Shown in pieces: positions 21,819 to 60,000 of a stretch of 60,000 nucleotides of DNA; positions within the stretch are counted from its first letter, which is position 1; every line of letters starts with the position of its first letter. Location: contig OX442315.1 in NCBI GenBank assembly GCA_949358305.1, forward strand, positions 4,156,001-4,216,000, read 5' to 3'. The notes beneath the pieces were generated by a model. The model saw only the letters and a program-made list of their open reading frames with translations, ran no database searches and was not told the origin of the DNA. Source of the DNA: Strigamia acuminata (taxonomy: Eukaryota; Arthropoda; Chilopoda; Geophilomorpha; Linotaeniidae). A program made the translations under genes and the position numbers.

Positions 21819-21820
21819 CT

Positions 21821-21832
21821 TGGGGGCCTGTC
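21821..21832 (+). other. Primer-binding site of element A
   Basis: TGGGGGCCTGTC starts two bases after the 5' LTR, as expected for a tRNA primer site. The same 12 bases follow the LTRs of element B. It resembles tRNA-Pro-type sites; the tRNA is inferred, not shown. Confidence 0.6.
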
Positions 21833-21912
21833 GATTTGAACTAAAAATTGTTAAATTTAACGGGACTCTCGACTTTCTTACTGTTTCTTTCTTGCACCTT
21901 TTATTGTAAAAA

Positions 21913-24900: not shown

Positions 24901-25476
24901 CCAGTGGACCCATCCAATCCTCACCCTCCACCCAAAAATGCAGTCAAGATGACAGCAAAAGCAATAGTGGAAAGGTTAGAGATGGAAGATAAAGAAGAAG
25001 TGCCAAATGAGACAAATTGGGCACAGGAAGAAGTAGAGTCAGAAGTTGATGATTTATTAGAAGGAGCACACGCATTCTACACAAGAAATAACCCGACAGC
25101 TCCAAAATATAAGCCATCACTGCAAGGAAGGACGTTGAATCCGTTCACTCGCCCAGCAGCAGCAGCAGCACCTGCATCTGCGCCAGCCTCAACGCTAACT
25201 CAAGCTGCAAAGCCAACCACAGCTTCAAATAACCTCACGAAGGTGATGGAAACATTTCTGAGTCAACCTTCAACATCAACTGCGCCATTACCTACAGGAG
25301 CGGTTCCGAAGTCTACACAGCCAACAGTCAAGGCCACGCCGGAGAACTCACCTTGCAACAATTGTCAGCAATTAGGACATTGGGCAAGGAATTGTCCCCA
25401 ACCAAAGAAATTTACGAAGGAGGACATTGAGAAGATCGTGCAGTCATTGACGGAATTGGTTCAAAAAAACATGTAG
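21913..25476 (+). pseudogene. Gag of element A with one in-frame stop
   Basis: Structural polyprotein of the particle, 1,187 codons from ATG 21913, unusually long for Gypsy. One TGA at 22399-22401 (codon 163) interrupts an otherwise continuous frame; an ATG follows at 22423 and could allow restart. Residues after the stop form a long charged coiled coil (about 22600-22990), then a Pro/Gln/Asn-rich linker, a capsid-like helical domain (FDGNWHAGTQFLEE, DWFYEQEFQDW, about 24240-24780) and one CCHC zinc knuckle (CNNCQQLGHWARNC, from 25353). It ends at TAG 25474-25476 just after a slippery site for Pol. The TGA may be a simple mutation or a programmed readthrough point; element B gag has no stop, so mutation is more likely. 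Confidence 0.85.
25464..25470 (+). promoter_or_regulatory. -1 frameshift heptamer A AAA AAC (element A)
   Basis: In the gag frame the codons read CAA AAA AAC ATG TAG, giving a canonical A AAA AAC slippery heptamer six bases before the gag stop. The -1 frame is open from here into pol. Downstream structure was not assessed. Confidence 0.75.
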
Positions 25477-25511
25477 GCGCGGACTCTCGAAGCCAAGAGC
25501 AGCCCGCGCCC

Positions 25512-29765: not shown

Positions 29766-30059
29766 AGTCCCCAGTATCTATAAATAGAAATGGCGTCACT
29801 CGGAATCCAGGATATGGATGACGTCATGGGATAGGGGCTGAACGGAAACAAAACGTCACTTTTCCGTTCATCGCCAAAGTGAAAACACACAAGTGTTCGT
29901 GTCAAACAAACAACTCGGATTTACCAACGAAAATAGGATTTATCACTGGATAGTAAGTTAAACTGAAGTGGATTGCCACAATAAATATATAATAACAAAC
30001 AAACTTCGTCGAAATTAGGAATTTATCGAAATTTCAAACGAAAGTAACGAGCGCCAATT
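29766..30059 (+). other. Spacer between pol and ORF3 (element A)
   Basis: 294 bp without an open frame. Probably holds the splice acceptor and 5' untranslated part of a subgenomic ORF3 message, but I could not pick one convincing acceptor. Confidence 0.4.
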
Positions 30060-32848: not shown

Positions 32849-32880
32849 AGGAAAAGAAGAAGTGGTTCCACTTCTCCCCT

Positions 32881-32894
32881 AAAAAGGAGGGAAG
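32881..32894 (+). other. Polypurine tract of element A
   Basis: AAAAAGGAGGGAAG, uninterrupted purines, directly precedes the 3' LTR at 32895. This is the expected primer for plus-strand DNA synthesis. Confidence 0.8.
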
Positions 32895-34060
32895 TGTGAT
32901 AATCCCAAATTACGACTAATAAAGGAAATTCCTTAAATCTAATAATTTTATGTGAGTCTAATTTGAGTACCAAAAGGATTGCAAGAATTATCCAGGCACA
33001 CAGGATGTAGCCCCTATCTTGTGTGGGAAACAAGATAAGATCTAGGGACTACAGGATGTGCTACATCCTGTTAGCAGTGAGAGCAGCTGCTAAGAACTCA
33101 GTCTGAAACCAAACCTGAACCTGAAAACACCTCCTGAAAAACACACAACTGAAAACCACTGAAAATCATTGTTTGTTATGGGAGAAAACTTCACTTCAGA
33201 TTTAGGCTCACTTCTTGAAATAACACAAGGTTATTTCGAGATACACAATTGGTAATTCTCTTCCCAACAAGAAGAGAGGGATTACACTCTTCTCCAAGTA
33301 AGAGTCAGGCCAACACTCTTAGCCACAAAAGAGTCAAGAATCTTCAGTTCGCCACGGCTAGAACGCTCGTCCACCGCCGCAACAAACGCTGGACCGAGGG
33401 AGGAAGATTCACCACGTTGCCGAACGTAAGCAGATCTAGTTTACGGGATTTCCCGACTAAGACAGCGGAATTCCGCTTGCGTTTGTATTCCGCTCGTATG
33501 AGTGGAAATATTCCGTTGGAACCAATTCCCGAGACGTACGAAGACGCCACGGACGAGATACAGCCAAGACCGGCATATCTCGAGATAATAGCGGTCCCAG
33601 ACGAGCCACAGCCCGCCAGGACGCACACGAGGACCGAAGCGAGATTGGACTCCAAGTTTGACGTCCAAGCGAATTCCGTCGCCCACGCCGAGCGACTGGA
33701 CGCAATAAGAAGATTCAGGACCGAATCCATAATATTCATTGCATCAGTATTTTTCCTAATTTCCTTATTCCTAGTTATAAGTTATTTTGTCTTGCATGAA
33801 TATATTAATTAATCTTTCTTATTTGCTATGTTCTCAAAGTCTGGAAAACCCAGCATTGTAAATTATCATTTATTCATATTTTAATGTAAGATAATTCCGG
33901 GTCGGAATTATCCCTATTTCCATATCAAAGTATTTTATTAAAAGTCAGAGAGTTAAATTATAAAAGTTAGTAATTATTTATATTATATGTAAGTCTTTTT
34001 AAAAGCAATCCTAACGTTCCCCGTGTTGTATTTTAAGTATAACATTTCGAGAACGTTACA
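32895..34060 (+). repeat. 3' LTR of element A
   Basis: 1,166 bp, nearly identical to 20655-21818; differences are a G/A at the fifth base and small indels near 33914 and 34003. Followed by ACGT (34061-34064), the target duplication, after which the transposase frame resumes. Confidence 0.95.
33498..33812 (+). CDS. LTR-encoded small tail-anchored-like ORF (3' LTR)
   Basis: Copy of the 104-codon frame at 21258-21572 with the same translation. Being in the 3' LTR it would lie after ORF3 on a genomic transcript only if the RNA extends through it. Present because the LTR is duplicated, not independent evidence for function. Confidence 0.35.
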   Translation: MSGNIPLEPIPETYEDATDEIQPRPAYLEIIAVPDEPQPARTHTRTEARLDSKFDVQANSVAHAERLDAIRRFRTESIIFIASVFFLISLFLVISYFVLHEYIN

Positions 34061-36727
34061 ACGTTTGATATCTTCAACTCATGTCCCAAAAAGAAAAAAA
34101 ATCAGTGATTCAGTAAATGAAATGAATGAATCAAACAGTTTGAGTGATCCTGTGTGTGAAACTACAAGTAGTAAGCAGAATATTATTTTAGAGAATGAAA
34201 ATCTAAAATCTAAAAACATATCTTTAAAATCATTGTTAATGGAGAAAGAAGAAACCCTGTCACAACAAATTAAAGAGATAGAAGAACTGAAAGCTGCATT
34301 AATGAAGGCTAAATCCCAAATTGCACCATACGAACTGTTGTCAAAAAAAACCAAACAAATAATTCAGACCTTTATTAAGAAAGAAACAACGAAGAAGAAT
34401 GGAATGCGTTACCAAAATGATTTTATTCTGGATTGCTTGCTACTTAGAATAAAATCACCAAAAGGTTATAAGCATTGCTTGAAACATGGACTGCTGCCTT
34501 TGCCTTCAAAAGCGACCTATTGTCGATTACTGCGTGGGCTAAAATGTGACTTTGGTATAAACAACAATGCACTTTTAGCGCTACAACAACAGTTTATCAA
34601 CAAGGCTGATAATGACTGTCTGGGGATTCTCGTTTTTGATGAAATGCAACTTAAACAAGAAGTTGATTTCAACGAATCCACAATGCAATTTGATGGCTTT
34701 GTAAATTATGGTAATTTAACGACTGAGGAACAGAAGAATGTTAAGGCAAATCACGCTCTTGTATTTGCTTTCCGTCCATTATTGGGCCAATGGATGCAAC
34801 CTATTGCGTGTTACACTTCAAAAAATGCAACCCCGGGTCATATTTTGGCAAAACTAATTTTAGAAGTTTTGATTGCTTTAGAAAACTCTGGTGCTAAAGT
34901 TATTGCAATTGCTTGTGATGGAGCTCAAACTAACAAAAGTGCTGTACATTCCTTTGGCATCAGTGGAAAGCAAAAAAACTTTAAAAATAGTTTTTCCCAT
35001 CCTTATGATTCAGTGAATAGAAAAGTGTTCTGTTTGTTTGATGTTCCTCACACGTTCAAATGTATTCGGAACCAATTTCAAAAGAAAAAAAAATGCAAAG
35101 TAAGCTGATTTAATAATCAAAATGAGTGTAATTATGGTTTTATATTAAATTTTAAATTTTTAGTTTTTAGATTGGACACTAGATTACAACTTATACAATG
35201 AATTGCTAAATGAAGAGCTAACCTTACCCGCAGGACTCAGAATTGTCCCAAAACTAACAGAACATCATATAACACCGAATGCATTTCAGAAAATGAATGT
35301 TTCTTTAGCAGTCCAGGTACGTTTGTTACAATTAAATGTAGTCCACAAATAAGTATACTAATTAAATTGTGTAGCCTTTCAGCAGGACCACTGCACGTGG
35401 ACTAAAAATTAACAGAGAATTAAAAAAAAAAAAGTTTATAAATTCCGAAGACTTAGAGAAGTTTACATCACACATAAACCATTTGTTTGACATTTTAAAC
35501 TCACGTTTACCTATTAATGGTTTGCAAAAAAATAGTGATAAGCACAAAGTAACTATTAGATTTATATCTATATTTCTATCAAAGTATATTCATTTGTTAA
35601 TTTGTTTTAGTTTCTACAAGAATTTGCAAATCAACTAAAGTCAGCAGATGCATTAAATGTGACTGTCATGTCATCTACAACCCATGAAGCCCTCAAAATA
35701 ACAGTTTGTAGTATTTTAGAAATCTCTGACTTCTTATGGGATCAAGGTTTTAAATACGTTTTAACGGGAAAACTAAATCAAGATTGTATTGAGGTATTAA
35801 TTTATTGCATGTGAGGGTTGCATGAATACTAATTTTTATTATTATTATCCTACCTAATGCAATTTAGTCATATTCTTTCCTATTTTTTTAAAAATTAATT
35901 TCAAATATTTTTCAGAGATATTTTAGTCTAATCAGATACAATGCTGGATGTGACGATCACCCTACTCCAAAAACATTCTCACAACTAAATTCACTGCTGT
36001 CAGCATACACACCAATCAAAAACGCTCTTGTGTCAGGAAATTGTGAGAAACAAGTGGACGAAACAATTCTGGAGTTTGGAAACTATCTGAAAACTGCATC
36101 AACCAATGCACATAAAGATGCAACAAACCAAAGAAAAATTGTTCAGGACCTCATCAAAACCAAATTAAATATAACAAATATAGGTTCTGACTATGTTAGG
36201 CACACAGACACAATACCAGAAGATGCAATTGTGCATGATCTCTGTGGTTGGCTAATAAAAAAGGCCAACGGAATAATAAGTTGTGAGAATTGTTTAAATT
36301 TATTAGTTAATAATCAAGAAACTTGTCTTCAAAATGCAATAATAACAAAGGCAAAAGATTATGGAAACTTTTTAAAATACCCATCAGCAGACTTTTTAGA
36401 CTTATTCAAAAAAGTAGAAAAAAATGTTCAAAACTTTCTTGCAAATGAAAAATTTTCAGGTAATTTATATGAAGTAATCATTAGTCAATTTTCAATAATT
36501 AATGTCAGTAATGTAATAGTTTGTTCTGCTGATCACTGTTTTGAATTGATTCCTAAACTTATAATGATGTATATAAAATTACGCCTTCATTTTTATACAA
36601 AAGTAAAAAATAATGAATTAACGACTAGTACTAAAACAAAATATGTGAGAAAACTGTCAAAATTGCAATAAAAATTTTTTTTTTTAACTTTTTCTTGAAA
36701 ATTTGTATTTTTTATGTTATATCTTAG

Positions 36728-37069: not shown

Positions 37070-37889
37070 TGTGGTGACCCAGTTGGATAAGTGTCCCCCC
37101 AGGGCGGATACTTGTCCTCTGAGTCACTATGATTGAAGAGTCGTTCCCCCCGAGTTGGCTCCACCTCCCCATGGCAGGTGTGTGCCCCGAGGGGGAGGAA
37201 GCGGTTGGTGGTCAGCCCCCATTGGTTGATCGCCGGCCCTTCACCCCACTGCATAAAAGGCTGTGTTTCCCGCCTAAAGTCAGAACTTACACAAACGACA
37301 CCAAGAACACAGCAACTACCTCACCGTCAGGCCAACTTCAACTACAAGTTAGGATTGATCGAGGATCGCTGAGTAAAGTGCAAACTGTAACTCTCACGAA
37401 GTCACTTGCGAGCTATTCCTGCGAAAGCACGAGAATAGCCCTTGTGAAATCACCCAGAATAATCGCCCAGACGATTATTCGCCGAAGTAAGTGTCCGAGT
37501 GCTTTGTAGGGAACCCCAAAGTTCCTAGACGAGGCCTCCGAGACGCTAAACCAAACCCTAGACAACAGGCACGGATAGAAGACTCGAGAGAGCATTCCAC
37601 CGCGTCCGTGACGACGAATCCGTGACGAATTTACGACAACTCGAGACGCCGCCTTTGTTCCGCCGACCACGCGGAACCGACGACGCCATCTTGAGAAATC
37701 CATTGTTCGACGCTGACCACGTCGACTCTAGAATTATTACTGAGTGTATTTTAAAGGCATAAAGCCTGGTGAATAAATTACCTGTTTATTTACATACATT
37801 TGGTATTCATTTGGGTATTTGCTTAATTGATCACAGGTAAAGTATTACACGTTAGCGCTATTTAAACCTATACAAAGTAGGACGCGACA
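37070..37889 (+). repeat. First LTR of element B
   Basis: 820 bp, starts TGTGGTGACCC and ends CGCGACA. A TATA-like ATAAAA at 37253-37258 is followed about 27 bp later by a TCAG initiator-like site (37280). AATAAA at 37772-37777 is a likely poly(A) signal, and ACAG|GTAAAG near 37838 a splice-donor-like site. A 126-codon frame (37129-37509) spans the TATA box and has no domain, so I do not call it a gene. Confidence 0.93.
37253..37283 (+). promoter_or_regulatory. Core promoter of element B LTR
   Basis: ATAAAA box with a TCAG initiator-like sequence about 27 bp downstream, the usual arthropod spacing. The same sequence recurs in the middle LTR from 49288. Confidence 0.55.
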
Positions 37890-37891
37890 CG

Positions 37892-37909
37892 TGGGGGCCT
37901 GTCCGGGAT
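37892..37909 (+). other. Primer-binding site of element B
   Basis: TGGGGGCCTGTCCGGGAT begins two bases after the LTR. It differs by only two bases from the tRNA-Pro primer site known from gammaretroviruses, so tRNA-Pro is the likely primer. Repeated at 49927-49944 in unit 2. Shares its first 12 bases with element A. Confidence 0.65.
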
Positions 37910-37972
37910 TTAGAAATAAATCTCAAATCTGAACTTGTGATCTCTCAATAAGATAACCCAAATCGAAAGAAA

Positions 37973-40900
37973 ATGTCAGACAAAGACGAACAATCCACGT
38001 CTGAAACCGAGCAGAGAATGCCCGAGAAGGGAAAAAGGACCTCCGACTACCACCTAAGGTCGGATGGTCCCGTCCCGGAAATGTCCGCAAAGGCGAAAGC
38101 CCGAGCGAATAAAAGGAGAGCGAAGGCGCAGAAAGAGGAGCAAGCTGCATCGCTCGCGGCCCTAGACGGGCCAGAGCGAGAGCGGGTTCCCTTGAATATG
38201 CAACCCTTCGAAGATACCGATCCGGAAGCCATAGAAAATCGAGAAGAAATTCGCGACGTATCGCCGGGACGAGTATCGATATTAATGACCGAGGAGACGA
38301 ATGAAGCTCCGAGAAAAACGGTCACGGTCGGCACAAACCCATCGCCACCAACGGCTCAGACGTCCGTAGAGCAAACCCCACGGAAAAACGACGGCGGGAC
38401 CCCGATAACCCCCCGAGTTACGGCGAGTCCTGCAGTTGTTTCCTTCGAAGTATCTCACCTAATTCGGTTGACGCAGCAAGCTGCCCAACTAAAAGCGATG
38501 ATAGACATCCCAGTAGGAACATCAGTCTGGGAATCAATTACTCTACTCACGGACGCTATCTGCGCGGCACAAGCCCCGACGCCGGTCGCAAGACCAGCAG
38601 CGGAGACGCCCATGCCCCAGGTAACGCCCAGTGACACCGGAGGTTTCGCGCCAGACCCCAACCGAGCACTTCAACAATCCAGAGAGAAGGCCCGCGAAGA
38701 AGCCAGACAAGAAGCGACTAATCGCCAACGAAGACTGAGCGCAGAGCGGCGAGAACTCTGGAAGGAAGAGGAAGAAAGGGAGCAACGCGAGAGAAGAACC
38801 ACCGAGAGAACAGAGAAACTGGTCCGAAAAATGAGGGAAGAACGAGAAGCTAAAATTCGAAAAGAATGGAACGCCACGGTAGAAGGGCGACATCGAGAAG
38901 CTCAAGAGTACGAGGACCAATTTCAAGTGCTCGTAGCTCAAAGAAAAGCAGAAAAGCTACAAATGTTGCGAGAAGAAGCCATTTTACAACATCAGAAATG
39001 GGAAGAGCAACATCGCGAGAGGTTGAGAGAAGAAGAAGCCAGAAAAGAAAAAGAACAGTTCCTGAAAGAGAAAGAGGAATGGGACCGAGTCAGATGGACC
39101 GAAGAGTACAAAGCAAAGAAACAAGCCATAATAGATGAGCAAAAAAGATGGGAAGCCGAAAACTGGGAGAAAGAAACAGAAAAGTTCCAAAAAGAGTACG
39201 AACAAGGTGTCTCGGACAGGAAGAAAAGGGAAGAAAACCCGAAACGAAAGTCAGAACCCCCAAGCGGCTCTGATACCGACACAGGAGAAGATGCAGCAAA
39301 GCCGGCAAAAACGGCAAAAAGGGGAAAATCACAAAAGAGAGACGGATCGGTCCCAAAAACAAAAGACCGTCACCCCTCAAAAAGATCCGAGACGGAGGCA
39401 GCCATCGACGCGTTACTCGAAAAGAAAAACGCAAATAAAAACCGGGAACGCCCCGAAAGCGAGGAAAACAGATGGCATTCTTTGTACGAGAACAACGACG
39501 GAGAGGAGCCGCCGCCATCCGGAGGCTCGAAACAGAAGAAGGCTGGCGGAGAGACCCCACCGAGAGGGCCGAGGTTTCACCCCCAAGGAGATCCCTCCGA
39601 GCCCTCCGATTCTTCGGACGACGACCACCCGAGTCGACCGTCTACAGGGAGGAGTCAAGAAGGCAGCGATGGGCACCGGTCGAACCGGCCGAATGCTTCA
39701 GACCGCTCCTCCCGGAGCTCCAACCCTCGTTCAGAGGAAGGGAACTTTCAGGACTCATCTGGCCGACATTACACGATGTCTGAGCTAGGCCGAGCCCTGC
39801 TGAACTCTTTCAGAAGAGAAGGAATCGATCTAGGCCATCCAGGCGACGAACATAATCGCGCTGGAGAGAGGGTTAAGCGCAAATATGGCGTACGAAACGA
39901 ACCAAGCAGTGAAGCCACGGGTAACATCCGCTGGCAACACTATATTCAAACGCGGTTTGACGGTTCGTGGAAGGCCGGAGACCGCTTCCTGGACGAAGTA
40001 ATGCGTATCAAGAAAGCGACAAAAGCCACCGTCGCCGACATGCTAACCCACGGGCTAGTGGAGCTAACTACGGGGTCAGCTCGAGAATGGTACCAGGGAC
40101 TAAAAAACCCAACCTGGGACGATTTTCTCGTCCGTTTCGATCTCCGATACGGCGAGACTCCAGACGAGATCAGTAACAAATTACGTGGTCTACGACAAGC
40201 CCCAGGAGAAACATTAGCCGACTACGACGCCCGAGCGAAACTCCTGTTTGCAAGAGCGCCGTATGAAATAAACCCCGCTGGTTTTACGATGATCTTTTAC
40301 GGAGGATTATCAGCCCACTCGCAAAGAATTCTGCTAGACATGCGTGCACCCCGCACTGGCGATTACCAAGATGTCAGTAACTATCTTCTAACAAACACGT
40401 TAGAAATAGAACAGCGGTATTATGCCACTCTGCCCCCGGAGGAAGCTGAAGCACACGAGAAACGGTTGCAGACGAGCGCCGAACGTCACAAGACCTCAGA
40501 GAAATTAATGAGGCCAAGTGAATATTTGAGCGGCATCATGAGTCTCGCCGAGGCCTCCTTCGGACGAATGCTGACACCTAAGGCAGGCAGTATCCTTCCA
40601 GCCAACCCAATAGCTGCCCCAAAAAAAGCACCGGCAGCGATGGCGATGCAGGTGACCTCGACGGACTCCACCCAGATGGAGAAAGTCGAAGAGACAACAC
40701 CTCTCGCCACGGCTAAAGAAGAGGAGCCAGCATCGAGCGACGAGGAAGCCCTAAATGAGCACCTCGAAAACTTATCGACGGGATGCGACGATCAAGGTCC
40801 CTATTTGCACCATGCACACCGGGCCTTGGCAATCACACAATTCAGAGCACACGTGCAGGCGACAAAAGCGAGAGGAGCATTGGGAGGAAAAAGACGATTC

Positions 40901-41113
40901 CCGACGCCCTTCGTCCCGAAAAAACCGGGATTCACTCCCACAGGGGATAAAAGTAACATCAAATGTTACAGCTGTGGAGAATACGGCCACTACTCAGATA
41001 GATGTGAGAAAACCGTCAAAGAAAAGGACATCATGCAAACCATGATGAAAATGATGATGGAGTTAAAAACTGATCTGGCAAAAAACTTCCAAGCGCAGGC
41101 GTCGCCGAAATAA
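37973..41113 (+). CDS. Gag of element B, unit 1
   Basis: Structural polyprotein of 1,046 codons from ATG 37973, 64 bases after the primer-binding site, with no interruption. N-terminal 230 residues are polar; about 235-430 form a highly charged Glu/Arg coiled coil (REEAR, EEEREQRERR); then an acidic-basic Pro/Ser linker (to about 600); a capsid-like domain (TRFDGSWKAGDRFLDE, REWYQGLKNPTWDDF, FYGGLSAHSQRI, about 650-830); and one CCHC zinc knuckle (CYSCGEYGHYSDRC) near the C terminus that should bind the genomic RNA. It ends in TAA after a slippery site. Domain order matches element A gag. Confidence 0.93.
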   Translation: MSDKDEQSTSETEQRMPEKGKRTSDYHLRSDGPVPEMSAKAKARANKRRAKAQKEEQAASLAALDGPERERVPLNMQPFEDTDPEAIENREEIRDVSPGRVSILMTEETNEAPRKTVTVGTNPSPPTAQTSVEQTPRKNDGGTPITPRVTASPAVVSFEVSHLIRLTQQAAQLKAMIDIPVGTSVWESITLLTDAICAAQAPTPVARPAAETPMPQVTPSDTGGFAPDPNRALQQSREKAREEARQEATNRQRRLSAERRELWKEEEEREQRERRTTERTEKLVRKMREEREAKIRKEWNATVEGRHREAQEYEDQFQVLVAQRKAEKLQMLREEAILQHQKWEEQHRERLREEEARKEKEQFLKEKEEWDRVRWTEEYKAKKQAIIDEQKRWEAENWEKETEKFQKEYEQGVSDRKKREENPKRKSEPPSGSDTDTGEDAAKPAKTAKRGKSQKRDGSVPKTKDRHPSKRSETEAAIDALLEKKNANKNRERPESEENRWHSLYENNDGEEPPPSGGSKQKKAGGETPPRGPRFHPQGDPSEPSDSSDDDHPSRPSTGRSQEGSDGHRSNRPNASDRSSRSSNPRSEEGNFQDSSGRHYTMSELGRALLNSFRREGIDLGHPGDEHNRAGERVKRKYGVRNEPSSEATGNIRWQHYIQTRFDGSWKAGDRFLDEVMRIKKATKATVADMLTHGLVELTTGSAREWYQGLKNPTWDDFLVRFDLRYGETPDEISNKLRGLRQAPGETLADYDARAKLLFARAPYEINPAGFTMIFYGGLSAHSQRILLDMRAPRTGDYQDVSNYLLTNTLEIEQRYYATLPPEEAEAHEKRLQTSAERHKTSEKLMRPSEYLSGIMSLAEASFGRMLTPKAGSILPANPIAAPKKAPAAMAMQVTSTDSTQMEKVEETTPLATAKEEEPASSDEEALNEHLENLSTGCDDQGPYLHHAHRALAITQFRAHVQATKARGALGGKRRFPTPFVPKKPGFTPTGDKSNIKCYSCGEYGHYSDRCEKTVKEKDIMQTMMKMMMELKTDLAKNFQAQASPK
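41080..41086 (+). promoter_or_regulatory. -1 frameshift heptamer A AAA AAC (element B, unit 1)
   Basis: In the gag frame the codons read GCA AAA AAC TTC, a canonical A AAA AAC heptamer 24 bases before the gag stop. The -1 frame is open from here through the gag stop into pol, which has no ATG at its start. This supports Gag-Pol production by frameshifting. Confidence 0.8.
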
Positions 41114-41184
41114 ATTCAGCTTCGTCTGCGCCAGCCGCGGAAATTAAAAAGAAGAAATATCACACTGGACCCGCAGGTCATGCC

Positions 41185-44100
41185 TTGGCAGAGGCACAGA
41201 TCAAAGAACGCATACAGACCGTTCCGAAGAAGGAGGAAAAAGTGACGTTAACGAGTATGCAAGTGAGAACGAAACCGGAGGTCGACATGGATTGGACGGA
41301 CCTTCCGTTCAATCTGGAGGTTGAGCCCCAGACATTACGCGTATTTCACTGCAATGTCACAAAAGCACATTGCGAAACTCTGTGTATGCTGCCAGTGGAG
41401 ATAGAAAACCAAAAATTGTTCGGTCTACTGGATTCAGGAGCGGATCGTTCATACATATCCGAAGATATAGTAAAGGACTTGGATATTGGAAAAAAGGTGG
41501 CACAAGTGAACGCGAACGTAGAATTGCTCACCGCCAACGGCTACGTCAAGCCGAAGGGCGTAGTTCGCATCATGATCGACTGGAAGGGGGGGAACCTGTC
41601 CCACCCCTTCATAGTCTTGCCATCCCACGACAAAGTATTCCTCCTAGGGATGGATATCATGGCGAAACTGAAAATTCAGCCAAACCCGATAACCCGTTCA
41701 TGGAACTGGATAAGTCCCGAGGGAGAACGGCCAGTCCCCGTGGTCCCCCAAAAATTGCTGGACGAAGCCAAGGACAAAGAGGAATACGGAAGAGGATTGC
41801 GAAAATTCGTCCAAGAGTACGATTTCGCAGCCTTCACTCTGGAATTACAAAGGAGTAACGTCGTGGACACTCTAGTCGAGGAGGCAGCACTGCGTATCAA
41901 CGAGGCATCGCTACTAAGGCGAGTGCTTCGAAAACATGAAAGAATTCTGACCAAGACACCTGGTCGAACGACGGAAGCAACCCACGAAACAGTCTTAACC
42001 ACAGACAAGCCGATTCGAGTGCCTTACAAGGGGATGAACCCCCAGAAAAGAGACATTGTGACGCAAATGTGCCAAGACATGCTCGACAAGGGCATAGTAA
42101 CGCAAGCCCTGGGCGAATACGCCATGCGGATCGTCCTGGTGACACGTCCAGGTTCGGAACCTCGACTATGCATCGATTATCGCCCCCTGAACGCGATAAC
42201 ATTTATAGACCCGATTCAGATGCCGTCTATAGACTCGATCCTCCGGGAACTGAGCCCATTTAAGTGGGTAACCACCATGGACTTGTCAAAGGGGTATTGG
42301 CAGGTGGAACTCAAACCCGAAGACAAACTGAAAACAGCTTTCTACTCCCCGATAGGAAGACTAATGTTCAACGTGATGCCGTTCGGGCTTGTAAATGCCC
42401 CGAGCACGTTCCAGAAATTGATCGAAAGCGTGTTGGGAGATATGCTTCACGACTTCGTGTGGGCGTATCTCGACGACATCATAATAACGTCGGACACATT
42501 CGAAGAGCATATAGACCACATCGACAGAGTGGTCTCTCGCCTAGCCAAGGCGGGACTCCACATCCATCCAGGGAAGAGCAAGTTTTGCAGAAAAGAGCTT
42601 GCCTTCCTAGGATACCGAATAGGAGTCGAGGGAATCGCGATTGACCCCGAAAAGGTTAAAGCAATAAACGGATTCCCCGCCCCCGAAGATATAAAAGGTG
42701 TCCAGAGATTTATGGGCATGGTCAATTTCTTCGGCCGACTACTCTCTGGTCTGGCTGAGGTGGCCGCGCCTATAACGGATCTCTTACGAACGGATAAAGA
42801 GTTTGAGTGGACGGTCCAGTGCGAGGCCGCATTTAGCACTATCAAGCAAATGCTGGCTGACGTCGAAAAGATGCCATTGCCGGACCTAAACCGACCGTTC
42901 GTGTTGCACACCGACGCGAGTAAAATCGGACTGGGTGCAGCCCTTCTGCAGACCCACGTGTACAACGGAATCTCGCAGGAAGTACCCTGTATGTTTATAA
43001 GCAGAAAAATACAGGGCGCGGAGAAAAATTACACGGCAACGGAACTAGAATGCCTAGCCGTAATTTGGGCAGTTCGGAAGTTTCGCGACTATCTGGAGTA
43101 CACGAACTTCGAGGTTCAGACAGATCACCAGGCACTAAGCTGGTTGATGAAGCTCAAGGAACCCTCCGGCCGACTCGCACGATGGCAACTGGAGTTAATG
43201 GCGTGCGATATAACAATTACGTACCGCCCCGGGAAGTACAATCATGTGGCCGACGCCCTCTCAAGAGCCCCAGCCTCTGACCCCCAAGGTCCAGACGACG
43301 ACGGCGAGGACGACACCCACCTCTTGTACTGCCCGACTCCACGGAGAATATGGCGTTTGCGAAAGGCGAACGAGCTACCAGTGATGGAGCCCGAGGATAG
43401 AACGTTTTGTGGGTTTTGGACTCGAACATACCAGCCAGCGGGGACGAACGATTCAACATCCGAAATTCAATCTCCGCCCCCCGGAGAAACCCACAAAACA
43501 CTACTACGCGCCTTCACAGCAAAAATTGAAGAAAAAACGCAATATGCTCCACCCACGAGACGTGAGTCCATCGAACACCAGGCAGCAGACGCAAAATGTC
43601 AAATTATAACACAATATTTGCTAAACAGCGAATTTCCGGAAGGGATGACAAACCCCCACCGCCGAAAACAGTTCGTCAAGGAGGCAACAAGCTACCTCAT
43701 AGATGATGAACTCCTGGTGAAATACCACCCGACGTTTCAAGATGACCTCAGCGAAGCGGGAAACTCGGTTAAAGTGGTCGTGCCGACATCACTACACACC
43801 CGACTGTTGTGGCTGATGCACGGACACCCGCTCGCCGGCCATTCTGGCGTGGCGAGGACCCTTTATCGAGTAAAACAACTTTTCTTCTGGCCGGGCGCGC
43901 GGCAAAAGATAACGAAATTTATCCGACACTGCCCCCGGTGCCAAGCGTGCAGACCGCGAGATAAAGTGGCCAGAAACGCCATGTCTCTCGGACCCTACGC
44001 ACCATTTGACTGCCTAAGCATAGACTTGATGGGCCCCAAGCCCACAACGGGAAACAAGAACATGTATATTCTCGTAATTATGGATGTGGCCACCCGATGG

Positions 44101-45216
44101 CCGGAGCTGTACGCCCTCGCGAAGCCCTCGGCTGAAAACATAGTCGAGTGCCTTTACGACGTGGCAATGCGATTTGGGTTTCCCAGAAAACTCATTTCGG
44201 ATAACGGCCCCCAATTCCGATCAAGAATATATAAGGACTTCTGTAGAAAATTTAAAATGGATGCATCAAACACCTCCACGTATAATCCTCAGACAAACCC
44301 AGTCGAGAGATTAAATAAAGACATAAAGTATGCGCTGACAGTATTCACCGATATTCACAATCGATGGGACGAATACCTGCGAGAAATCGCTTTCAGCATT
44401 CGCTCAACCGTGTCAAGAACACGCGAATTCTCACCGGCGTACCTCAACTTCGCCCGCGAATTAAGGATGCCATGGGACCCACGCGTTGCCGAAGCTGTTA
44501 ACGTATTAGACCCATCGAGCCCACATGAGTACGTGTGCCGGTTGGAACAGACTATATCCGACACATACCAGCATATGATGGCGCATATTTTCAACATGAG
44601 AGAGAGAATCGCAGATAAAGAAGGCGATCTCGCTTTCGCGAACTTTAAAGTGAATGATCTAGTGTGGAAGGAGGCACACACGTTGTCCAATGCAGCGAGG
44701 GGCATCGCCGCCGGTTTAGCCGACAAGAGGGACGGTCCCTATGTAATTGTGGCCGAACACGGCGGCAACGCATACCAACTGCGCCGCTTAGAGGACAACA
44801 AAAATTTTCAGTCGATACATGGCCGAGATTTAAGGCCATATCTGCCAGAGTTTCCCCAAGAAATCTGGCTGGAAGGTCAGACACACAGCGGCCAAGGGGG
44901 CACCGTGGTCGACACGTTCCAAAAAACAAATGAAGCTGAAAATATAACGAAGGACGAGGACGAATTCTTCGACGCCGAATCCCCAGCCGACGAGGCTCCA
45001 ACTCAGCCGGAGCAAGCAATTTCGGAGAGGGAGGAAGCAGAAGAATGTACTTCTGAAATGGAAAATAAAAAAATTAATAATGAGAAAAATGCCAACACAT
45101 CGGAGATGAACGAGCAAGTAGAGTCACGATCTACGAGCACGTCGAAAATCAACCTTCGACCACGACGAAGCGATAATCCGTTCATTCGGGACGGCAAAGT
45201 CGTGGGGAAGAACTAA
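41185..45216 (+). CDS. Pol of element B, unit 1 (PR-RT-RH-IN)
   Basis: 1,343 codons from 41185; the frame is really open from the slippery site at 41080. Protease (LDSGADRSY, LLGMDIM), reverse transcriptase (LCIDYRPLN, MPFGLVNAP, YLDDI), RNase H (HTDASKIG, TELECLA, TDHQALSW), integrase zinc finger (HGHP, H, CPRCQAC), core (SIDLMGP, ISDNGPQF, NPVERLN) and GPY module (RDGPYVIV), then an acidic tail with a basic end. No stops or frameshifts, and catalytic residues are present, so it is potentially functional. Closest relative in the window is Pol of element A, which shares the HMMAHI...GLADKR block before GPY. Confidence 0.96.
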   Translation: MAEAQIKERIQTVPKKEEKVTLTSMQVRTKPEVDMDWTDLPFNLEVEPQTLRVFHCNVTKAHCETLCMLPVEIENQKLFGLLDSGADRSYISEDIVKDLDIGKKVAQVNANVELLTANGYVKPKGVVRIMIDWKGGNLSHPFIVLPSHDKVFLLGMDIMAKLKIQPNPITRSWNWISPEGERPVPVVPQKLLDEAKDKEEYGRGLRKFVQEYDFAAFTLELQRSNVVDTLVEEAALRINEASLLRRVLRKHERILTKTPGRTTEATHETVLTTDKPIRVPYKGMNPQKRDIVTQMCQDMLDKGIVTQALGEYAMRIVLVTRPGSEPRLCIDYRPLNAITFIDPIQMPSIDSILRELSPFKWVTTMDLSKGYWQVELKPEDKLKTAFYSPIGRLMFNVMPFGLVNAPSTFQKLIESVLGDMLHDFVWAYLDDIIITSDTFEEHIDHIDRVVSRLAKAGLHIHPGKSKFCRKELAFLGYRIGVEGIAIDPEKVKAINGFPAPEDIKGVQRFMGMVNFFGRLLSGLAEVAAPITDLLRTDKEFEWTVQCEAAFSTIKQMLADVEKMPLPDLNRPFVLHTDASKIGLGAALLQTHVYNGISQEVPCMFISRKIQGAEKNYTATELECLAVIWAVRKFRDYLEYTNFEVQTDHQALSWLMKLKEPSGRLARWQLELMACDITITYRPGKYNHVADALSRAPASDPQGPDDDGEDDTHLLYCPTPRRIWRLRKANELPVMEPEDRTFCGFWTRTYQPAGTNDSTSEIQSPPPGETHKTLLRAFTAKIEEKTQYAPPTRRESIEHQAADAKCQIITQYLLNSEFPEGMTNPHRRKQFVKEATSYLIDDELLVKYHPTFQDDLSEAGNSVKVVVPTSLHTRLLWLMHGHPLAGHSGVARTLYRVKQLFFWPGARQKITKFIRHCPRCQACRPRDKVARNAMSLGPYAPFDCLSIDLMGPKPTTGNKNMYILVIMDVATRWPELYALAKPSAENIVECLYDVAMRFGFPRKLISDNGPQFRSRIYKDFCRKFKMDASNTSTYNPQTNPVERLNKDIKYALTVFTDIHNRWDEYLREIAFSIRSTVSRTREFSPAYLNFARELRMPWDPRVAEAVNVLDPSSPHEYVCRLEQTISDTYQHMMAHIFNMRERIADKEGDLAFANFKVNDLVWKEAHTLSNAARGIAAGLADKRDGPYVIVAEHGGNAYQLRRLEDNKNFQSIHGRDLRPYLPEFPQEIWLEGQTHSGQGGTVVDTFQKTNEAENITKDEDEFFDAESPADEAPTQPEQAISEREEAEECTSEMENKKINNEKNANTSEMNEQVESRSTSTSKINLRPRRSDNPFIRDGKVVGKN

Positions 45217-45596
45217 AAATAAAAGAAAATGTGATAACATGGAGCGGAGGCCTTGTAAAATAGAAAGATTTACTTACGAGAGCTGCTGCACATGTTGAGA
45301 CGCGAAAATTTGGCTAAGTCCAAACTTCGCAACGAATTGTCGCAGTCACCACTAACAGACGAGAAGTTATGACGTATCGGGCGACCACGTGACAACGAAA
45401 CCACGCGGTCGACCCCGTAGCGTCATTGCCAGCACGGCGGATCTCGCAAAATACGAGACGCGTTCGAGACCCACAATTCTCAGCGTCGATAGGCCCAGTT
45501 TCCGACTGTTTTTAACACGACGAGACGTGTTTTTTGCTTCTCCCCAAAGAGAAAACAAAGACCTCTCAAACAAAAACTTCTCTTTCCTAAATTGAA
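45217..45596 (+). other. Spacer between pol and ORF3 (element B, unit 1)
   Basis: 380 bp without a supported gene. A pyrimidine-rich stretch ending CTTCTCCCCAAAG near 45548 is a candidate splice acceptor for an ORF3 message. Recurs at 57252-57631. Confidence 0.4.
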
Positions 45597-48500
45597 ATGG
45601 CCGATCGACGCAACCCACGATTAGAGCCGAGCGCATCGTCGAGAGACGAGAGCGACGGCCTAATCGTAAATGCAGAAGAAGAATAGAATTGGGACGAACA
45701 ACCGCCGTTGCAGGTAAATTAGTGTGATTTCCCCAGAGAAATCACATAATTCTTTGAATCTGTTGCATCCAACCCAGATTGGAGCGTGACTTGTGACTGA
45801 TATATTTCTTTCTGTTTTATTGTTGATTTAAGGCTGGCTAAAAAACCCGAGAGTGGACCCAGATTCACCTCGGAGTCAAGGCCGCCAAAAAACTAGAACA
45901 AAGGAAGTGTTCGCGGAATGGCGTCGTGGCAAACCAAAACCAAAACTAAAGGTTTTCTTTCTTTTAAATTTAAACATCGTAATAAATTAAAATACGATTA
46001 GAGTTAAAATAAAAAAGTTTAACGTAAAATTAAAATTTAACGATCGGTTTTGCCTGCGACCCCTTCCTAAAAGCGGATCACCTGAGTTCAAAAGTAGTGT
46101 TGGATCAGCGCTACGACGGCGGAGATCATCGCAGAACTGCGAAACAAGAAAATAAGACCGACGGCCGCAACAAAAGAAAGGAGCTGCTGCCACCGTCGAT
46201 CTTGAGCATATTTCTGATCCCCATCGTTAACTGGGATTTATTATATTAATCTTGTGATCTAAAATTATTCAGGTCGACCCGCTAGAATCGTGGGACGCCC
46301 TGCCTCCGACGGCGTCAACCGCCAACAACATCTTTCGCGGAGCCCTGCCGATTTACCTGCGGCAGGCCTATCCTGCGGAGACCAGCGCCTGGAAGATTCG
46401 ATTGATGTATTCCAGGACCCTCGAAGAAAAATTCGAGCGATCGAAAACGCTGGTCGAGTGCATGACGAAGGAGATGAGGGAGCGAGTGGGGCCGCGGATC
46501 CCACCCGATGCGGATCCGCCGAGCCCCGTTTACTCCGGGTATCTGGAAGAGGCTTACCCAGGCACGGTGGCCGAGTTGCACACCTCCCACAGGTGGCGCG
46601 AGGCCCCGACCTTGGCAGCCCGCCAGAGAATAGTGGACGACGAGATCAAACGCTTAAAGCGCACCGAGACTCACGGAGTAACCCGAGTTCTCGAGAGAAA
46701 CGGTTTCTCCCCCGAAGAAATCCGTAGATGGCTTCGCGACATCGAAGAAGATCATCTGACACCCAGATGGATACCGCCGGCGAATTTTACGGCCACGCAG
46801 TCTGAGATGTGGCAGTTATACCACGCTGGTATCCTGGGAAGTCGCCGCCATCACAGAAGATCGAAGCGTCCGGCGGAGTCCGCTCCACGCGGACCCGCAC
46901 GAAGAAGACAGGCCGTCTCCCCAATAGAGGCCGGCCCGTCAACGAGTCGCGACTACCGCAGCCGCTCGAGCAGCTCCAGTTCCCGAACTCGAGTTGTCGT
47001 GCGCTCGGAGTGTCGCCGAGTAGTAACGCTCGAACCTGCCTCGCCAGACGACGCGCGGGCTGAGCGAACAGTCGAATCTTCCGCCCACTGGGCTGCGAGG
47101 ACCGAGACACACCAAGATCGAGGAAAGAAAAGATCCTCGTTGTTTATGGCGATTACCACACAATCGTCAGATCAATCCTCGTCGCGACGAACCGTCTCAT
47201 CACACCAGAGACCGGATTCCCCGTCGGACGTCCCCCAGAGGACGGTCCAACGAAGATCCGTCGCGGCCAACACCAGAAGGAACCGGAAACGCAAAGTACG
47301 TCAGAAGATGCGTGCACAATCCCTGATAGCCAAGGGATTAGAGAAGGAGCGAGAGATGGCCGCCGCGAAAAGGTCCGAACCCCAGAGTCTCGGACCCACG
47401 GCTGGGCCATCCAGGCTCCAAGCGGAGATCGACTTGGGAGAATTGACGGAGGAACAATTGTCCCAAGATGAGTCGGATAAGGATGGACCGGTTACGAAGC
47501 AGGATCTGGCCGTGGCTTTGAAGAACGCCTTCCGAGGATACGCGGCCAACCGGCCGTCGAGCTCAACACCGGCTGTGCCAACCGCGCTTGTGCCCCCACA
47601 GGTGCAACCGCGATGGCCGCCACTCCTCGAGGGTACAAACCCAGCCGTGACCGCGTGGACTCCTCCCCGGATGATTCCGGTGGGAGATCCAACTCCGAAA
47701 CGGGTCAGATACGATGACTTACCCGGGTTGGGCCGTCCACCATCACCCCCAACACCGCGCGTGTATCGACCTCATCGCAACGCCGAGTGGTACGCACAGC
47801 GGGAGATGGACGCCCGGTGCCGGCGTGAAGCGGCCTATCCTCCACTCAGCGAGCTACGGGAATATCTGGCCGAATACGAGAACCCCGCGATTGCCGAGTT
47901 GGCCATACGACAGGCCGACGCCGCCCAGACTCACCACATCAATTGGGCGATCGAACAGATGCGGACGCTGTCACAACAATTCAGTGACAATCCGGACCGC
48001 GCTCACCCCTGCCATCGGAGCAGTTTGAATTTGGCCGTGACGAACGTCTTGGCCCAGCTGTTGTCCCTGGGCGTCTTCTTGGACAGTCGGCAGGCTATGG
48101 CGGCCTGGACAATCGTCGACCGTGAGGGAGTTCACCTTCCTCGGGCGTTGTACCAGGTGTGGGCCGGATGGACTCCTGAGCCCGCCTCGCTGCGCTTCGA
48201 CCTGGCCAGAAATACAGAAAACCCAGGCCTACAGTTTTCAAAGATGCGTTCGTTAGCATTCCGCTACCGGAACCCCGGAGTCCACCCTTCCTTGTTGCGA
48301 ACAATTCGGGAGGCTCCGGAGATACCAGGAACGGCAGCAAGCCTCCCACAGGCCATCGAGACCGCCCCCCCAGAGGCGGCGGTCCAACCATACATACCGA
48401 CCCCAAAGCCGGTATTCCCGAAGGAGAAGCGGTACGCGAATCGACCCAAATTGATTCCGAAACGCTCCAACCGAGGACCGCGAACTCCTCCGCTGCCCTC

Positions 48501-49059
48501 TCCTTCACCACCAGCGGCAGAGCTGGCCGCTCTTGCAACAGAGCCGGCTACGCCACCGTTGGAGAGTCCAATGGAGATTCCACTTCCTCCATCGCCTCCG
48601 CCGCCCCCAGCAGCGCAGCTTTACTTGAGGTTGGGAGTGGAATACCCATTCCTCCAGATGTCGGAGTTAACGCGACAACGCATCATTGACTCCGATGATC
48701 ACGGCGAGTCGATCCTCAAATGGCTGAACAGAGAGGCCCGATCCACCATGGACGCCGTCTTCCATCGCCGTATCCTACGGGCCCACAGGAAACCCGGATC
48801 GAGCGCCGAGTCGCGAAGGATTCGGCTCGTTCCAGACCGATTCCCTGCATCTACCCGGATTTGGATCCATGAGCGTACGGGGTTGATTGGCGAGCCAGTC
48901 GGCGGTCACCCGCAGTACTTCATCAACGAGCGACAAAATCCTGCGGATCTGACAACCTCTCTACCCCCGGATTTACCACCGCCGCCACCGGCTGTGCCAC
49001 CGGTTATCCTCCGCCCATGCAGAGGTGTATTGCCGGCGCTCCGCAGAGGAGAACGATAA
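45597..49059 (+). pseudogene. Spliced ORF3 of element B, unit 1 (stop in exon 1)
   Basis: Third gene, function unknown. Exon 1 (45597-45713, 39 codons) ends at CAG|GTAAAT; intron 45714-46272 (559 nt); exon 2 starts after TATTCAG at 46273 in phase 0 and is open for 928 codons to TGA at 49057-49059. Exon 1 has a TAG at 45684-45686 where unit 2 reads GAG, so this copy would need another start (ATG at 46405). Features of exon 2: Ser/Arg-rich basic N-terminal half, motif ATQSEMWQLYHAG, block LPRALYQVW...LRFDLARNT, Pro-rich segments (PPLPSPSPP, PLPPSPPPPP) and a C-terminal EYPFLQMSELTR domain. No signal peptide or membrane helix. Distant homologue of ORF3 of element A in the same position and exon layout. 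Confidence 0.75.
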
Positions 49060-49089
49060 AATTTGAGATCGCTCCGATCCGAGATCGAA

Positions 49090-49104
49090 GCTGGAGGAGG
49101 GACG
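49090..49104 (+). other. Polypurine tract of element B
   Basis: Purine-rich GGAGGAGGGACG directly before the middle LTR at 49105; expected plus-strand primer. Confidence 0.65.
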
Positions 49105-49924
49105 TGTGGTGACCCAGTTGGATAAGTGTCCCCCCAGGGCGGATACTTGTCCTCTGAGTCACTATGATTGAAGAGTCGTTCCCCCCGAGTTGGCTCCACC
49201 TCCCCATGGCAGGTGTGTGCCCCGAGGGGGAGGAAGCGGTTGGTGGTCAGCCCCCATTGGTTGATCGCCGGCCCTTCACCCCACTGCATAAAAGGCTGTG
49301 TTTCCCGCCTAAAGTCAGAACTTACACAAACGACACCAAGAACACAGCAACTACCTCACCGTCAGGCCAACTTCAACTACAAGTTAGGATTGATCGAGGA
49401 TCGCTGAGTAAAGTGCAAACTGTAACTCTCACGAAGTCACTTGCGAGCTATTCCTGCGAAAGCACGAGAATAGCCCTTGTGAAATCACCCAGAATAATCG
49501 CCCAGACGATTATTCGCCGAAGTAAGTGTCCGAGTGCTTTGTAGGGAACCCCAAAGTTCCTAGACGAGGCCTCCGAGACGCTAAACCAAACCCTAGACAA
49601 CAGGCACGGATAGAAGACTCGAGAGAGCATTCCACCGCGTCCGTGACGACGAATCCGTGACGAATTTACGACAACTCGAGACGCCGCCTTTGTTCCGCCG
49701 ACCACGCGGAACCGACGACGCCATCTTGAGAAATCCATTGTTCGACGCTGACCACGTCGACTCTAGAATTATTACTGAGTGTATTTTAAAGGCATAAAGC
49801 CTGGTGAATAAATTACCTGTTTATTTACATACATTTGGTATTCATTTGGGTATTTGCTTAATTGATCACAGGTAAAGTATTACACGTTAGCGCTATTTAA
49901 ACCTATACAAAGTAGGACGCGACA
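49105..49924 (+). repeat. Middle LTR shared by both element B units
   Basis: 820 bp; I saw no difference from 37070-37889 by eye. It serves as the 3' LTR of unit 1 and the 5' LTR of unit 2, and is followed by the same primer-binding site at 49927. Confidence 0.95.
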
Positions 49925-57631: not shown

Positions 57632-60000
57632 ATGGCCGATCGACGCAACCCACGATTAGAGCCGAGCGCATCGTCGAGAGACGAGAGCGACGGCCTAATC
57701 GTAAATGCAGAAGAAGATGAGAATTGGGACGAACAACCGCCGTTGCAGGTAAATTAGTGTGATTTCCCCAGAGAAATCACATAATTCTTTGAATCTGTTG
57801 CATCCAACCCAGATTGGAGCGTGACTTGTGACTGATATATTTCTTTCTGTTTTATTGTTGATTTAAGGCTGGCTAAAAAACCCGAGAGTGGACCCAGATT
57901 CACCTCGGAGTCAAGGCCGCCAAAAAACTAGAACAAAGGAAGTGTTCGCGGAATGGCGTCGTGGCAAACCAAAACCAAAACTAAAGGTTTTCTTTCTTTT
58001 AAATTTAAACATCGTAATAAATTAAAATACGATTAGAGTTAAAATAAAAAAGTTTAACGTAAAATTAAAATTTAACGATCGGTTTTGCCTGCGACCCCTT
58101 CCTAAAAGCGGATCACCTGAGTTCAAAAGTAGTGTTGGATCAGCGCTACGACGGCGGAGATCATCGCAGAACTGCGAAACAAGAAAATAAGACCGACGGC
58201 CGCAACAAAAGAAAGGAGCTGCTGCCACCGTCGATCTTGAGCATATTTCTGATCCCCATCGTTAACTGGGATTTATTATATTAATCTTGTGATCTAAAAT
58301 TATTCAGGTCGACCCGCTAGAATCGTGGGACGCCCTGCCTCCGACGGCGTCAACCGCCAACAACATCTTTCGCGGAGCCCTGCCGATTTACCTGCGGCAG
58401 GCCTATCCTGCGGAGACCAGCGCCTGGAAGATTCGATTGATGTATTCCAGGACCCTCGAAGAAAAATTCGAGCGATCGAAAACGCTGGTCGAGTGCATGA
58501 CGAAGGAGATGAGGGAGCGAGTGGGGCCGCGGATCCCACCCGATGCGGATCCGCCGAGCCCCGTTTACTCCGGGTATCTGGAAGAGGCTTACCCAGGCAC
58601 GGTGGCCGAGTTGCACACCTCCCACAGGTGGCGCGAGGCCCCGACCTTGGCAGCCCGCCAGAGAATAGTGGACGACGAGATCAAACGCTTAAAGCGCACC
58701 GAGACTCACGGAGTAACCCGAGTTCTCGAGAGAAACGGTTTCTCCCCCGAAGAAATCCGTAGATGGCTTCGCGACATCGAAGAAGATCATCTGACACCCA
58801 GATGGATACCGCCGGCGAATTTTACGGCCACGCAGTCTGAGATGTGGCAGTTATACCACGCTGGTATCCTGGGAAGTCGCCGCCATCACAGAAGATCGAA
58901 GCGTCCGGCGGAGTCCGCTCCACGCGGACCCGCACGAAGAAGACAGGCCGTCTCCCCAATAGAGGCCGGCCCGTCAACGAGTCGCGACTACCGCAGCCGC
59001 TCGAGCAGCTCCAGTTCCCGAACTCGAGTTGTCGTGCGCTCGGAGTGTCGCCGAGTAGTAACGCTCGAACCTGCCTCGCCAGACGACGCGCGGGCTGAGC
59101 GAACAGTCGAATCTTCCGCCCACTGGGCTGCGAGGACCGAGACACACCAAGATCGAGGAAAGAAAAGATCCTCGTTGTTTATGGCGATTACCACACAATC
59201 GTCAGATCAATCCTCGTCGCGACGAACCGTCTCATCACACCAGAGACCGGATTCCCCGTCGGACGTCCCCCAGAGGACGGTCCAACGAAGATCCGTCGCG
59301 GCCAACACCAGAAGGAACCGGAAACGCAAAGTACGTCAGAAGATGCGTGCACAATCCCTGATAGCCAAGGGATTAGAGAAGGAGCGAGAGATGGCCGCCG
59401 CGAAAAGGTCCGAACCCCAGAGTCTCGGACCCACGGCTGGGCCATCCAGGCTCCAAGCGGAGATCGACTTGGGAGAATTGACGGAGGAACAATTGTCCCA
59501 AGATGAGTCGGATAAGGATGGACCGGTTACGAAGCAGGATCTGGCCGTGGCTTTGAAGAACGCCTTCCGAGGATACGCGGCCAACCGGCCGTCGAGCTCA
59601 ACACCGGCTGTGCCAACCGCGCTTGTGCCCCCACAGGTGCAACCGCGATGGCCGCCACTCCTCGAGGGTACAAACCCAGCCGTGACCGCGTGGACTCCTC
59701 CCCGGATGATTCCGGTGGGAGATCCAACTCCGAAACGGGTCAGATACGATGACTTACCCGGGTTGGGCCGTCCACCATCACCCCCAACACCGCGCGTGTA
59801 TCGACCTCATCGCAACGCCGAGTGGTACGCACAGCGGGAGATGGACGCCCGGTGCCGGCGTGAAGCGGCCTATCCTCCACTCAGCGAGCTACGGGAATAT
59901 CTGGCCGAATACGAGAACCCCGCGATTGCCGAGTTGGCCATACGACAGGCCGACGCCGCCCAGACTCACCACATCAATTGGGCGATCGAACAGATGCGGA
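57632..60000 (+). CDS. Spliced ORF3 of element B, unit 2 (cut by window end)
   Basis: Exon 1 57632-57748 is fully open here (codons GAT GAG at 57716-57721 where unit 1 has GAA TAG), acidic at its end (EEDENWDEQ). Intron 57749-58307; exon 2 from 58308 is in phase and open to the window end, so about 1.1 kb of the C-terminal coding part is missing. This is the intact version of the gene and the best one for judging its N terminus. No signal peptide in exon 1, which argues against an envelope role. Confidence 0.75.

Follow-up and report, generated by a model that had tools for sequence, protein, structure and literature searches.

An apparently split third gene retained behind pol in a clade of giant arthropod Ty3/Gypsy elements

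Architecture of elements A and B

The stretch analysed here, referred to as the window, comprises 60,000 nucleotides of the Strigamia acuminata genome (Chilopoda; Geophilomorpha; NCBI GenBank assembly GCA_949358305.1, contig OX442315.1, positions 4,156,001 to 4,216,000 of the forward strand). It holds two giant Ty3/Gypsy elements, A (about 12.9 kb) and B (about 13.4 kb), and both carry behind pol a large gene, here called ORF3, which is apparently divided by an intron into a short and a long exon. ORF3 is a genuine accessory gene that one clade of giant arthropod Ty3/Gypsy elements has kept since ancient times. Coordinates below are those of the window, and all features of A and B lie on the plus strand.

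Copy 1 of element A (37070-49924) is bounded by long terminal repeats (LTRs) at 37070-37889 and 49105-49924, the LTR plus leader being identical over 1031 bp. A primer-binding-site-like sequence, TGGGGGCCTGTCCGGGAT, was read next to the LTR, and TGGGGGCC stands behind the LTR in A as well as in B. The gag frame (37952-41113, 1053 codons from stop to stop) has a zinc knuckle near its end, which is weak in Pfam (zf-CCHC E 0.005, under the family cut-off) and reads as CX2CX4HX4C by eye. The pol frame (41074-45216) encodes protease, reverse transcriptase (RT), ribonuclease H (RNase H) and integrase (Pfam RT_RNaseH 9e-35, RVT_1 3e-29, rve 9e-14). Two copies of A are arranged in tandem from 37070 to 60000 with the middle LTR common to both, and the second copy exits the window. 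Within the window 10,896 bases can be compared between the copies, of which 2 differ, and the arrangement may have come from unequal recombination or from insertion of a joined form.

Element B (20655-34060) has LTRs of about 1.16 kb (20655-21818 and 32895-34060, 99.5% identical) and is flanked by a 4-bp target duplication, ACGT. Its gag frame (22402-25476, 1024 codons) contains a zinc knuckle (Pfam zf-CCHC 1.6e-6). In the longer gag frame of 21913-25476, an in-frame TGA at 22399-22401 separates off a 162-codon ATG-bearing stretch (21913-22401). The pol frame of B lies at 25431-29765 (Pfam RT_RNaseH 1e-35, RVT_1 4e-33, rve 3e-15). The order of protease, RT, RNase H and integrase in the Pfam matches of both elements is that of Ty3/Gypsy. 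Between A and B, pol is 49.5% identical over 1282 residues and gag 23% over 442.

The ORF3 gene in A and B

In copy 1 of A, exon 1 of ORF3 (45597-45713, 39 codons) is followed by a predicted phase-0 intron of 559 bp (45714-46272, GT..AG, acceptor TTATTCAG) and by an exon 2 of 928 codons plus stop (46273-49059). Copy 2 has an open exon 1 at 57632-57748 and an exon 2 which begins at 58308, exits the window at 60000 and is open to its end in the genome (locus L010). In B, exon 1 (30060-30131, 24 codons) and a predicted phase-0 intron of 146 bp (30132-30277, acceptor TTTATTCAG) precede exon 2 (30278-32848), and the same exon 1 and intron build were found in locus L039.

A preceding sequence-only reading of the window had described this large two-exon, phase-0 gene after pol in both elements, and it is present there, although some details had to be revised. 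Exon 1, described as short and acidic, is indeed short, but its start is basic and an acidic stretch comes only later; at least three lysine or arginine residues were read within the first 15 in 10 of 10 sequence types. The exon 1 proposed for copy 1 of A contains an in-frame stop, while 29 of 30 fetched copies of A, the window's copy 2 included, have it open. The long second exon is fully open in A, whereas that of the window's B is interrupted by an in-frame stop at 31256-31258. Of the 8 other long matches to B listed from the genome, 7 have an open frame of 859-861 codons and one of 611 codons. The net charge of exon 2 is basic in all 11 proteins considered, from +6 to +55.

Sequence similarity indicates that the ORF3 proteins of A and B are homologous. 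When exon 2 of A was compared by BLASTP with the open pieces of B, the N-terminal part matched with E 4e-11 (27% over 196 residues) and the C-terminal part with E 5e-9 (21% over 369 residues), and three blocks of shared motifs stand in the same order in both, as had been proposed.

Breadth of the ORF3 family and its conserved blocks

A search of the host genome with the C-terminal piece of B gave 112 matched stretches from the 82 scored of 1173 candidates, and internal stops were listed in 4 of the 112. Twelve ORF3 loci were fetched, one of them the B copy L039. Together with A they represent at least 11 families with mutual identities of at most 58%, where L045 was counted with L042 and L050 with L049; the gene is thus not shared by two families only, as first supposed. 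Frame lengths ranged from 759 to 1084 codons in the fetched loci and reached 1154 among the listed matches.

Three conserved blocks, N, M and C, were recognised in the alignments. The N block is characterised by WGT and TQ..MHQL..AG, the helical M block by GVF, IP..ML.NW, LRS.L and GET..Q...RLR.EW, and the C block by YGKIR..YP.L, KWLE and VWLHVN.G..SGP..G.P. The second motif of the sequence-only reading is general only in part, its PR and Q being particular to A and B. The linkers between the blocks are long and rich in basic residues, serine and proline, and these low-complexity stretches make up a large share of the protein.

Purifying selection and co-inheritance with pol

Of the 49 genome copies of exon 2 of A that were scored, 48 are free of interruption along the full query frame of 933 residues, and the many near-identical open copies reflect a recent burst. 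Among 30 copies of A, the variable sites of exon 2 at codon positions 1, 2 and 3 numbered 63, 48 and 255, with a ratio of nonsynonymous to synonymous polymorphism (pN/pS) of 0.116. The corresponding ratio of substitution rates (dN/dS) was 0.081 for A (means over 66 pairs of 12 chosen copies; single pairs 0.045-0.206), and it was 0.123 for the pair L049/L050 and 0.130 for the pair L042/L045, at dS 0.44. Of four more distant pairs, two were saturated, and the other two had ratios of 0.158 and 0.191 with dS close to or beyond 2. Purifying selection on ORF3 is therefore strong in three families. A dN/dS near 1, which would have spoken against a retained gene, was looked for and is excluded for these families, the measured values lying between 0.08 and 0.13.

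Variation is unevenly distributed along the 30 copies of A near 45714-47000. Both the intron, with 28 variable sites in 572 alignment columns, and the first 240 codons of exon 2 are far less variable than the remainder of that exon, and the difference also holds at third positions. Subfamily recombination or a constraint at the RNA level could account for this low variation.

Pol was found upstream of ORF3 in 5 of 5 further families for which extra sequence was available, and it was 50-69% identical to pol of A or B; ahead of ORF3, the end of pol was also recognised at L048 and at L039, the B copy. Across 7 families, the distances of pol and ORF3 were correlated with a Mantel r of 0.98 (334 shared pol columns), and among 5040 permutations only the observed pairing was that high. 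With A removed, r was 0.95 and 2 of 720 permutations were as high. Because the two genes have diverged together, ORF3 was inherited with pol and not repeatedly shuffled in. The divergence of ORF3 between A and B (about 20% identity) is close to that of gag.

Intron conservation and predicted splicing

The GT and AG of the ORF3 intron are kept in 30 of 30 copies of A. In 10 of the 12 fetched loci, the exon-2 frame starts at or just before an in-frame phase-0 acceptor, with a short open exon 1 upstream. This recurring build, together with purifying selection in three families and co-inheritance with pol in seven, bears out the earlier suggestion that ORF3 is a retained, non-envelope accessory protein. 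A phase-0 intron before exon 2 is likewise upheld at the level of sequence, but the acceptor TATTCAG seen in A and B is not general: other families end in TTTATAG, ATTTAG, TGATAG, TTTCAG, ATACAG or GACGCAG. Their phase-0 donors include GAG/GTAGTAAA, AAG/GTAGTCAA and GAG/GTATTTTT, where the slash marks the exon end.

One intronless relative was found. At L048 (G000:C1:51281000-51284720), exon 1 is fused in frame to exon 2, and its relative L043 has a 671-bp intron at the point of the fusion; the 405 bp that lead up to exon 1 match at 83% between the two loci. The fused junction occurs once in the genome. Judged from the sequence, L048 is what a reverse-transcribed spliced RNA would leave, with ancestral absence of the intron as the alternative. 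The spliced junction of A or B was absent genome-wide at up to 3 mismatches, and the pattern derived from L048 did find its place in the same genome. The RNA behind the copies of A and B was therefore unspliced. We infer that ORF3 is made from a spliced mRNA, while the packaged RNA keeps the intron.

ORF3 as a possible regulator of unspliced RNA

Retroviruses are well known to have accessory genes for managing their genomic RNA. Because the packaged RNA would keep the intron while ORF3 needs the spliced form, the element would have to export an RNA with working splice sites in unspliced form. We tentatively propose that ORF3 could be a nuclear regulator of this unspliced element RNA, acting by analogy like CERV of the Caenorhabditis elegans element Cer1 or like Rev of HIV-1. 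The unspliced RNA would serve both as genome and as gag-pol mRNA. The ORF3 protein would enter the nucleus, bind this RNA by means of a basic tail at its N terminus and a long linker that is basic and probably disordered, and assemble through the helical middle domain. It would then pass the RNA to an export route or restrain its splicing, as CERV and Rev do. A more specific form of the proposal, which we hold more doubtfully, is that ORF3 constitutes a separate protein family which is the counterpart of Rev and CERV in arthropods and has been inherited with pol across the whole giant Gypsy clade, and that its own conserved intron serves to switch between ORF3 mRNA, which is spliced, and genomic RNA, which is not.

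The nearest precedent is CERV, which is produced from a spliced mRNA and is required for export of the unspliced genomic RNA of Cer1; it has 517 residues encoded by 5 exons, exons 1-3 being in the gag frame, its cysteine loop is needed for function, and no obvious homology was reported for it outside nematodes (PMC10309623). ORF3 likewise is an accessory protein of an LTR retrotransposon for which a spliced mRNA is inferred, it has several blocks on flexible linkers as CERV has domains, and it diverges strongly, as CERV does between species (PMC10309623). It differs from CERV in being 1.5 to 2 times as long and in that exon 1 and the intron lie after pol in A and B, although a further 5' exon in the leader or gag would be invisible in DNA (PMC10309623). 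ORF3 would thus fit CERV by its logic, namely a split gene, absence of membrane signals, basic charge and linked blocks, and not by proven kinship.

Several points weigh against a regulator of this kind. The proposed role is drawn from sequence and analogy, the likeness of ORF3 to CERV being one of description, and no obvious conserved cysteine cluster was seen in the ORF3 alignments that would correspond to the cysteine loop of CERV. With 759 to 1084 codons ORF3 is also far larger than Rev. Its exon-1 count of lysine and arginine is not far above chance for a basic protein, and arginine-serine dipeptides (RS/SR) do not clearly exceed what composition predicts, fewer than 5% of shuffles reaching the observed count in only 2 of 11 proteins; ORF3 is therefore not a proven RS domain protein. 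As to the gene model, exon 1 of the other families was picked by eye from several ATG frames, several families have more than one phase-0 GT upstream, and L045 has no in-frame phase-0 acceptor. The copies of A used for the selection counts were picked by protein score, which biases them towards open frames; the pairs L049/L050 and L042/L045 are independent of this picking. Finally, the intron could be an ordinary one that is merely spliced inefficiently.

Alternative roles

A serious though unlikely rival is that ORF3 is instead a second structural protein, derived from Gag or associated with the capsid, which co-assembles with Gag or packages RNA. Such a role would agree with the conserved middle block being predicted as all-helical and with a divergence about as fast as that of gag. 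In the middle block, IPxExxxNW followed by GET..RLR.EW is reminiscent of the order in retroviral capsids. A comparison by hhalign with gag of A selected exactly the middle block, but the matches were not significant (probabilities of 0.4% and 1.6%), and against gag of B a different block was picked at 0.1%. The elements also already own a gag with a zinc knuckle, and no Gag family was matched in Pfam by any of 11 ORF3 members. The structure prediction of the conserved blocks suggested in the sequence-only reading was run on window sequences only, with alignments of 2 and 3 rows. The resulting models were of low confidence (mean predicted local distance difference test score, pLDDT, 40.0 and 45.5), and only a helical stretch around residues 531-630 of A reached 67-81. 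Fold searches with these models returned common helical arrangements and bundles only.

A role in chromatin or silencing is a rival of similar weight and similarly unlikely. In that case ORF3 would direct integration, activate the promoter, or help the element to escape PIWI-interacting RNA (piRNA) silencing or heterochromatin. The protein is basic and has no secretory signal by hydropathy, the recent burst of near-identical open A copies would be in keeping with such a function, and the plant element Retand encodes TRP28, a putative DNA-binding protein, between pol and the 3' LTR (PMC11963269). However, Pfam revealed no DNA-binding or chromatin domain, the single match being MBD_C at E 0.14 in 1 of 11 members, and a chromatin factor leaves the gene's own retained intron unexplained.

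It is quite unlikely that ORF3 is a host gene or an enzyme which the elements captured and which plays no special part in the fate of the RNA. Captures of this kind are known from bdelloid rotifers, where GDSL esterases and DEDDy exonucleases were acquired (PMC5408684). No family was found for ORF3 in Pfam, however, in a search of 11 members that listed matches with E up to 10, with the envelope, Gag, GDSL and DEDDy families all unmatched, and no relative was found in the PDB by sequence or profile, so that neither an enzyme family nor a solved enzyme stood above chance; the low-complexity linkers, which form a large part of the protein, also argue against an enzyme. No relative of ORF3 was detected among about 5.8 billion proteins, which is a weak negative because pol is also only distantly represented in that set (890 proteins at E <= 1e-20, the 120 listed being 28-41% identical).

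The hydropathy scan of 11 exon-2 proteins agreed with the earlier statement that ORF3 has neither a signal peptide nor a membrane helix: the N termini had no hydrophobic stretch, and nowhere did a membrane helix stand out clearly. A mean above 1.6 is the usual threshold for a membrane helix. The best 19-residue means were 0.95-1.75, and the only one above this threshold, residues 590-608 of A, falls within a region predicted to be a helical bundle, where the other 10 proteins have lower values; exon 1 is hydrophilic by reading. A highly derived envelope or another cell-to-cell transfer protein is accordingly disfavoured and most improbable, for although the place after pol and expression through splicing recall gypsy env, the scan found no such membrane features, the envelope match that the sequence-only reading had named as a refutation was sought in Pfam and not obtained, and B already has a separate LTR-encoded membrane protein.

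Comparison with other accessory genes

Extra genes beyond gag and pol are already known, as the bdelloid ORF3s (PMC5408684), TRP28 of Retand (PMC11963269) and CERV illustrate. The bdelloid ORF3s are likewise non-envelope third genes; they are family-specific and missing from the earliest branches, whereas ORF3 of the present elements has no match to any family and accompanied pol in those 7 families for which the two were compared (PMC5408684). Retand is also a Gypsy element with a long region separating pol from the 3' LTR, and the conserved protein encoded there has no known function, but TRP28 is antisense to gag and pol, while ORF3 is in sense orientation and has an intron (PMC11963269). 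The sORF1 and sORF2 genes of the Drosophila MDG1 group are, like ORF3, accessory genes of envelope-less LTR elements kept by selection; they are short and stand before gag, unlike the large, split gene behind pol (PMC11952523). In the excerpts of the literature searched, no earlier description was found of a large sense-strand gene with its own intron which is unlike the families searched and has accompanied pol throughout a clade in arthropods.

As CERV demonstrated, an element of the Gypsy type can own an accessory gene for managing its RNA. With many young open copies and at least 11 families in a single arthropod genome, ORF3 would, if it has such a role, give a second, independent system in which the steering of splicing and export by envelope-less retroelements can be studied, and would let one ask why an intron is kept in an RNA that must stay unspliced. 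ORF3 further gives element annotators a protein family to look for which has no recognised relatives.

A second accessory gene in the LTR of B

The LTR of B encodes a protein of 104 residues (21258-21572, with a second copy at 33498-33812) which has one membrane helix near its C terminus (hydropathy 2.74). The genome holds 62 matches to it, the most distant at about 32% identity, and the median dN/dS was 0.21 (53 usable of 78 pairs among 13 sequences, namely that of the window and 12 chosen of the 62). B has here a second accessory gene, distinct from ORF3, and no comparable frame exists in the LTR of A. The protein resembles sORF2 and FAST-like proteins in being of similar size, in having one membrane helix and in being under selection, and it differs from sORF2 in that its basic patch precedes the helix rather than following it (PMC11952523). 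The myristoylation start MGxxxS/T, present in 4 of 6 MDG1-group proteins and used as a filter in a wider survey (PMC11952523), was absent, as 12 of the 13 aligned sequences begin with MSG and one with MSC.

Other features of the window and the genome

A smaller Gypsy element at 8324-16453 is bounded by LTRs which measure about 518 bp and are 97% identical, and it has gag as well as pol (pol at 10790-14851, 35% identical over the RT part). It has no long frame behind pol and no ORF3. P-element/THAP9-like transposase fragments were found at 440-3003 on the minus strand and at 33993-35108 on the plus strand (TNP-like RNase H E 2.5e-36 and 6e-33; THAP9_C 2e-4), the latter starting at the end of element B. 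On the plus strand, 3145-4521 is open for 458 codons; this frame has a signal-like start by reading, a cysteine-rich part and a weak EF-hand match (E 0.02), and it is perhaps a host gene. A direct repeat at 16887-17186 and 17503-17802 has a spacing of 616 bp and is 100% identical over at least 300 bp. At the contig ends, TTAGG telomere arrays are present (for example C1:1-520), in keeping with an arthropod host; exact 30-base matches, counted with overlap on both strands, number 18704.

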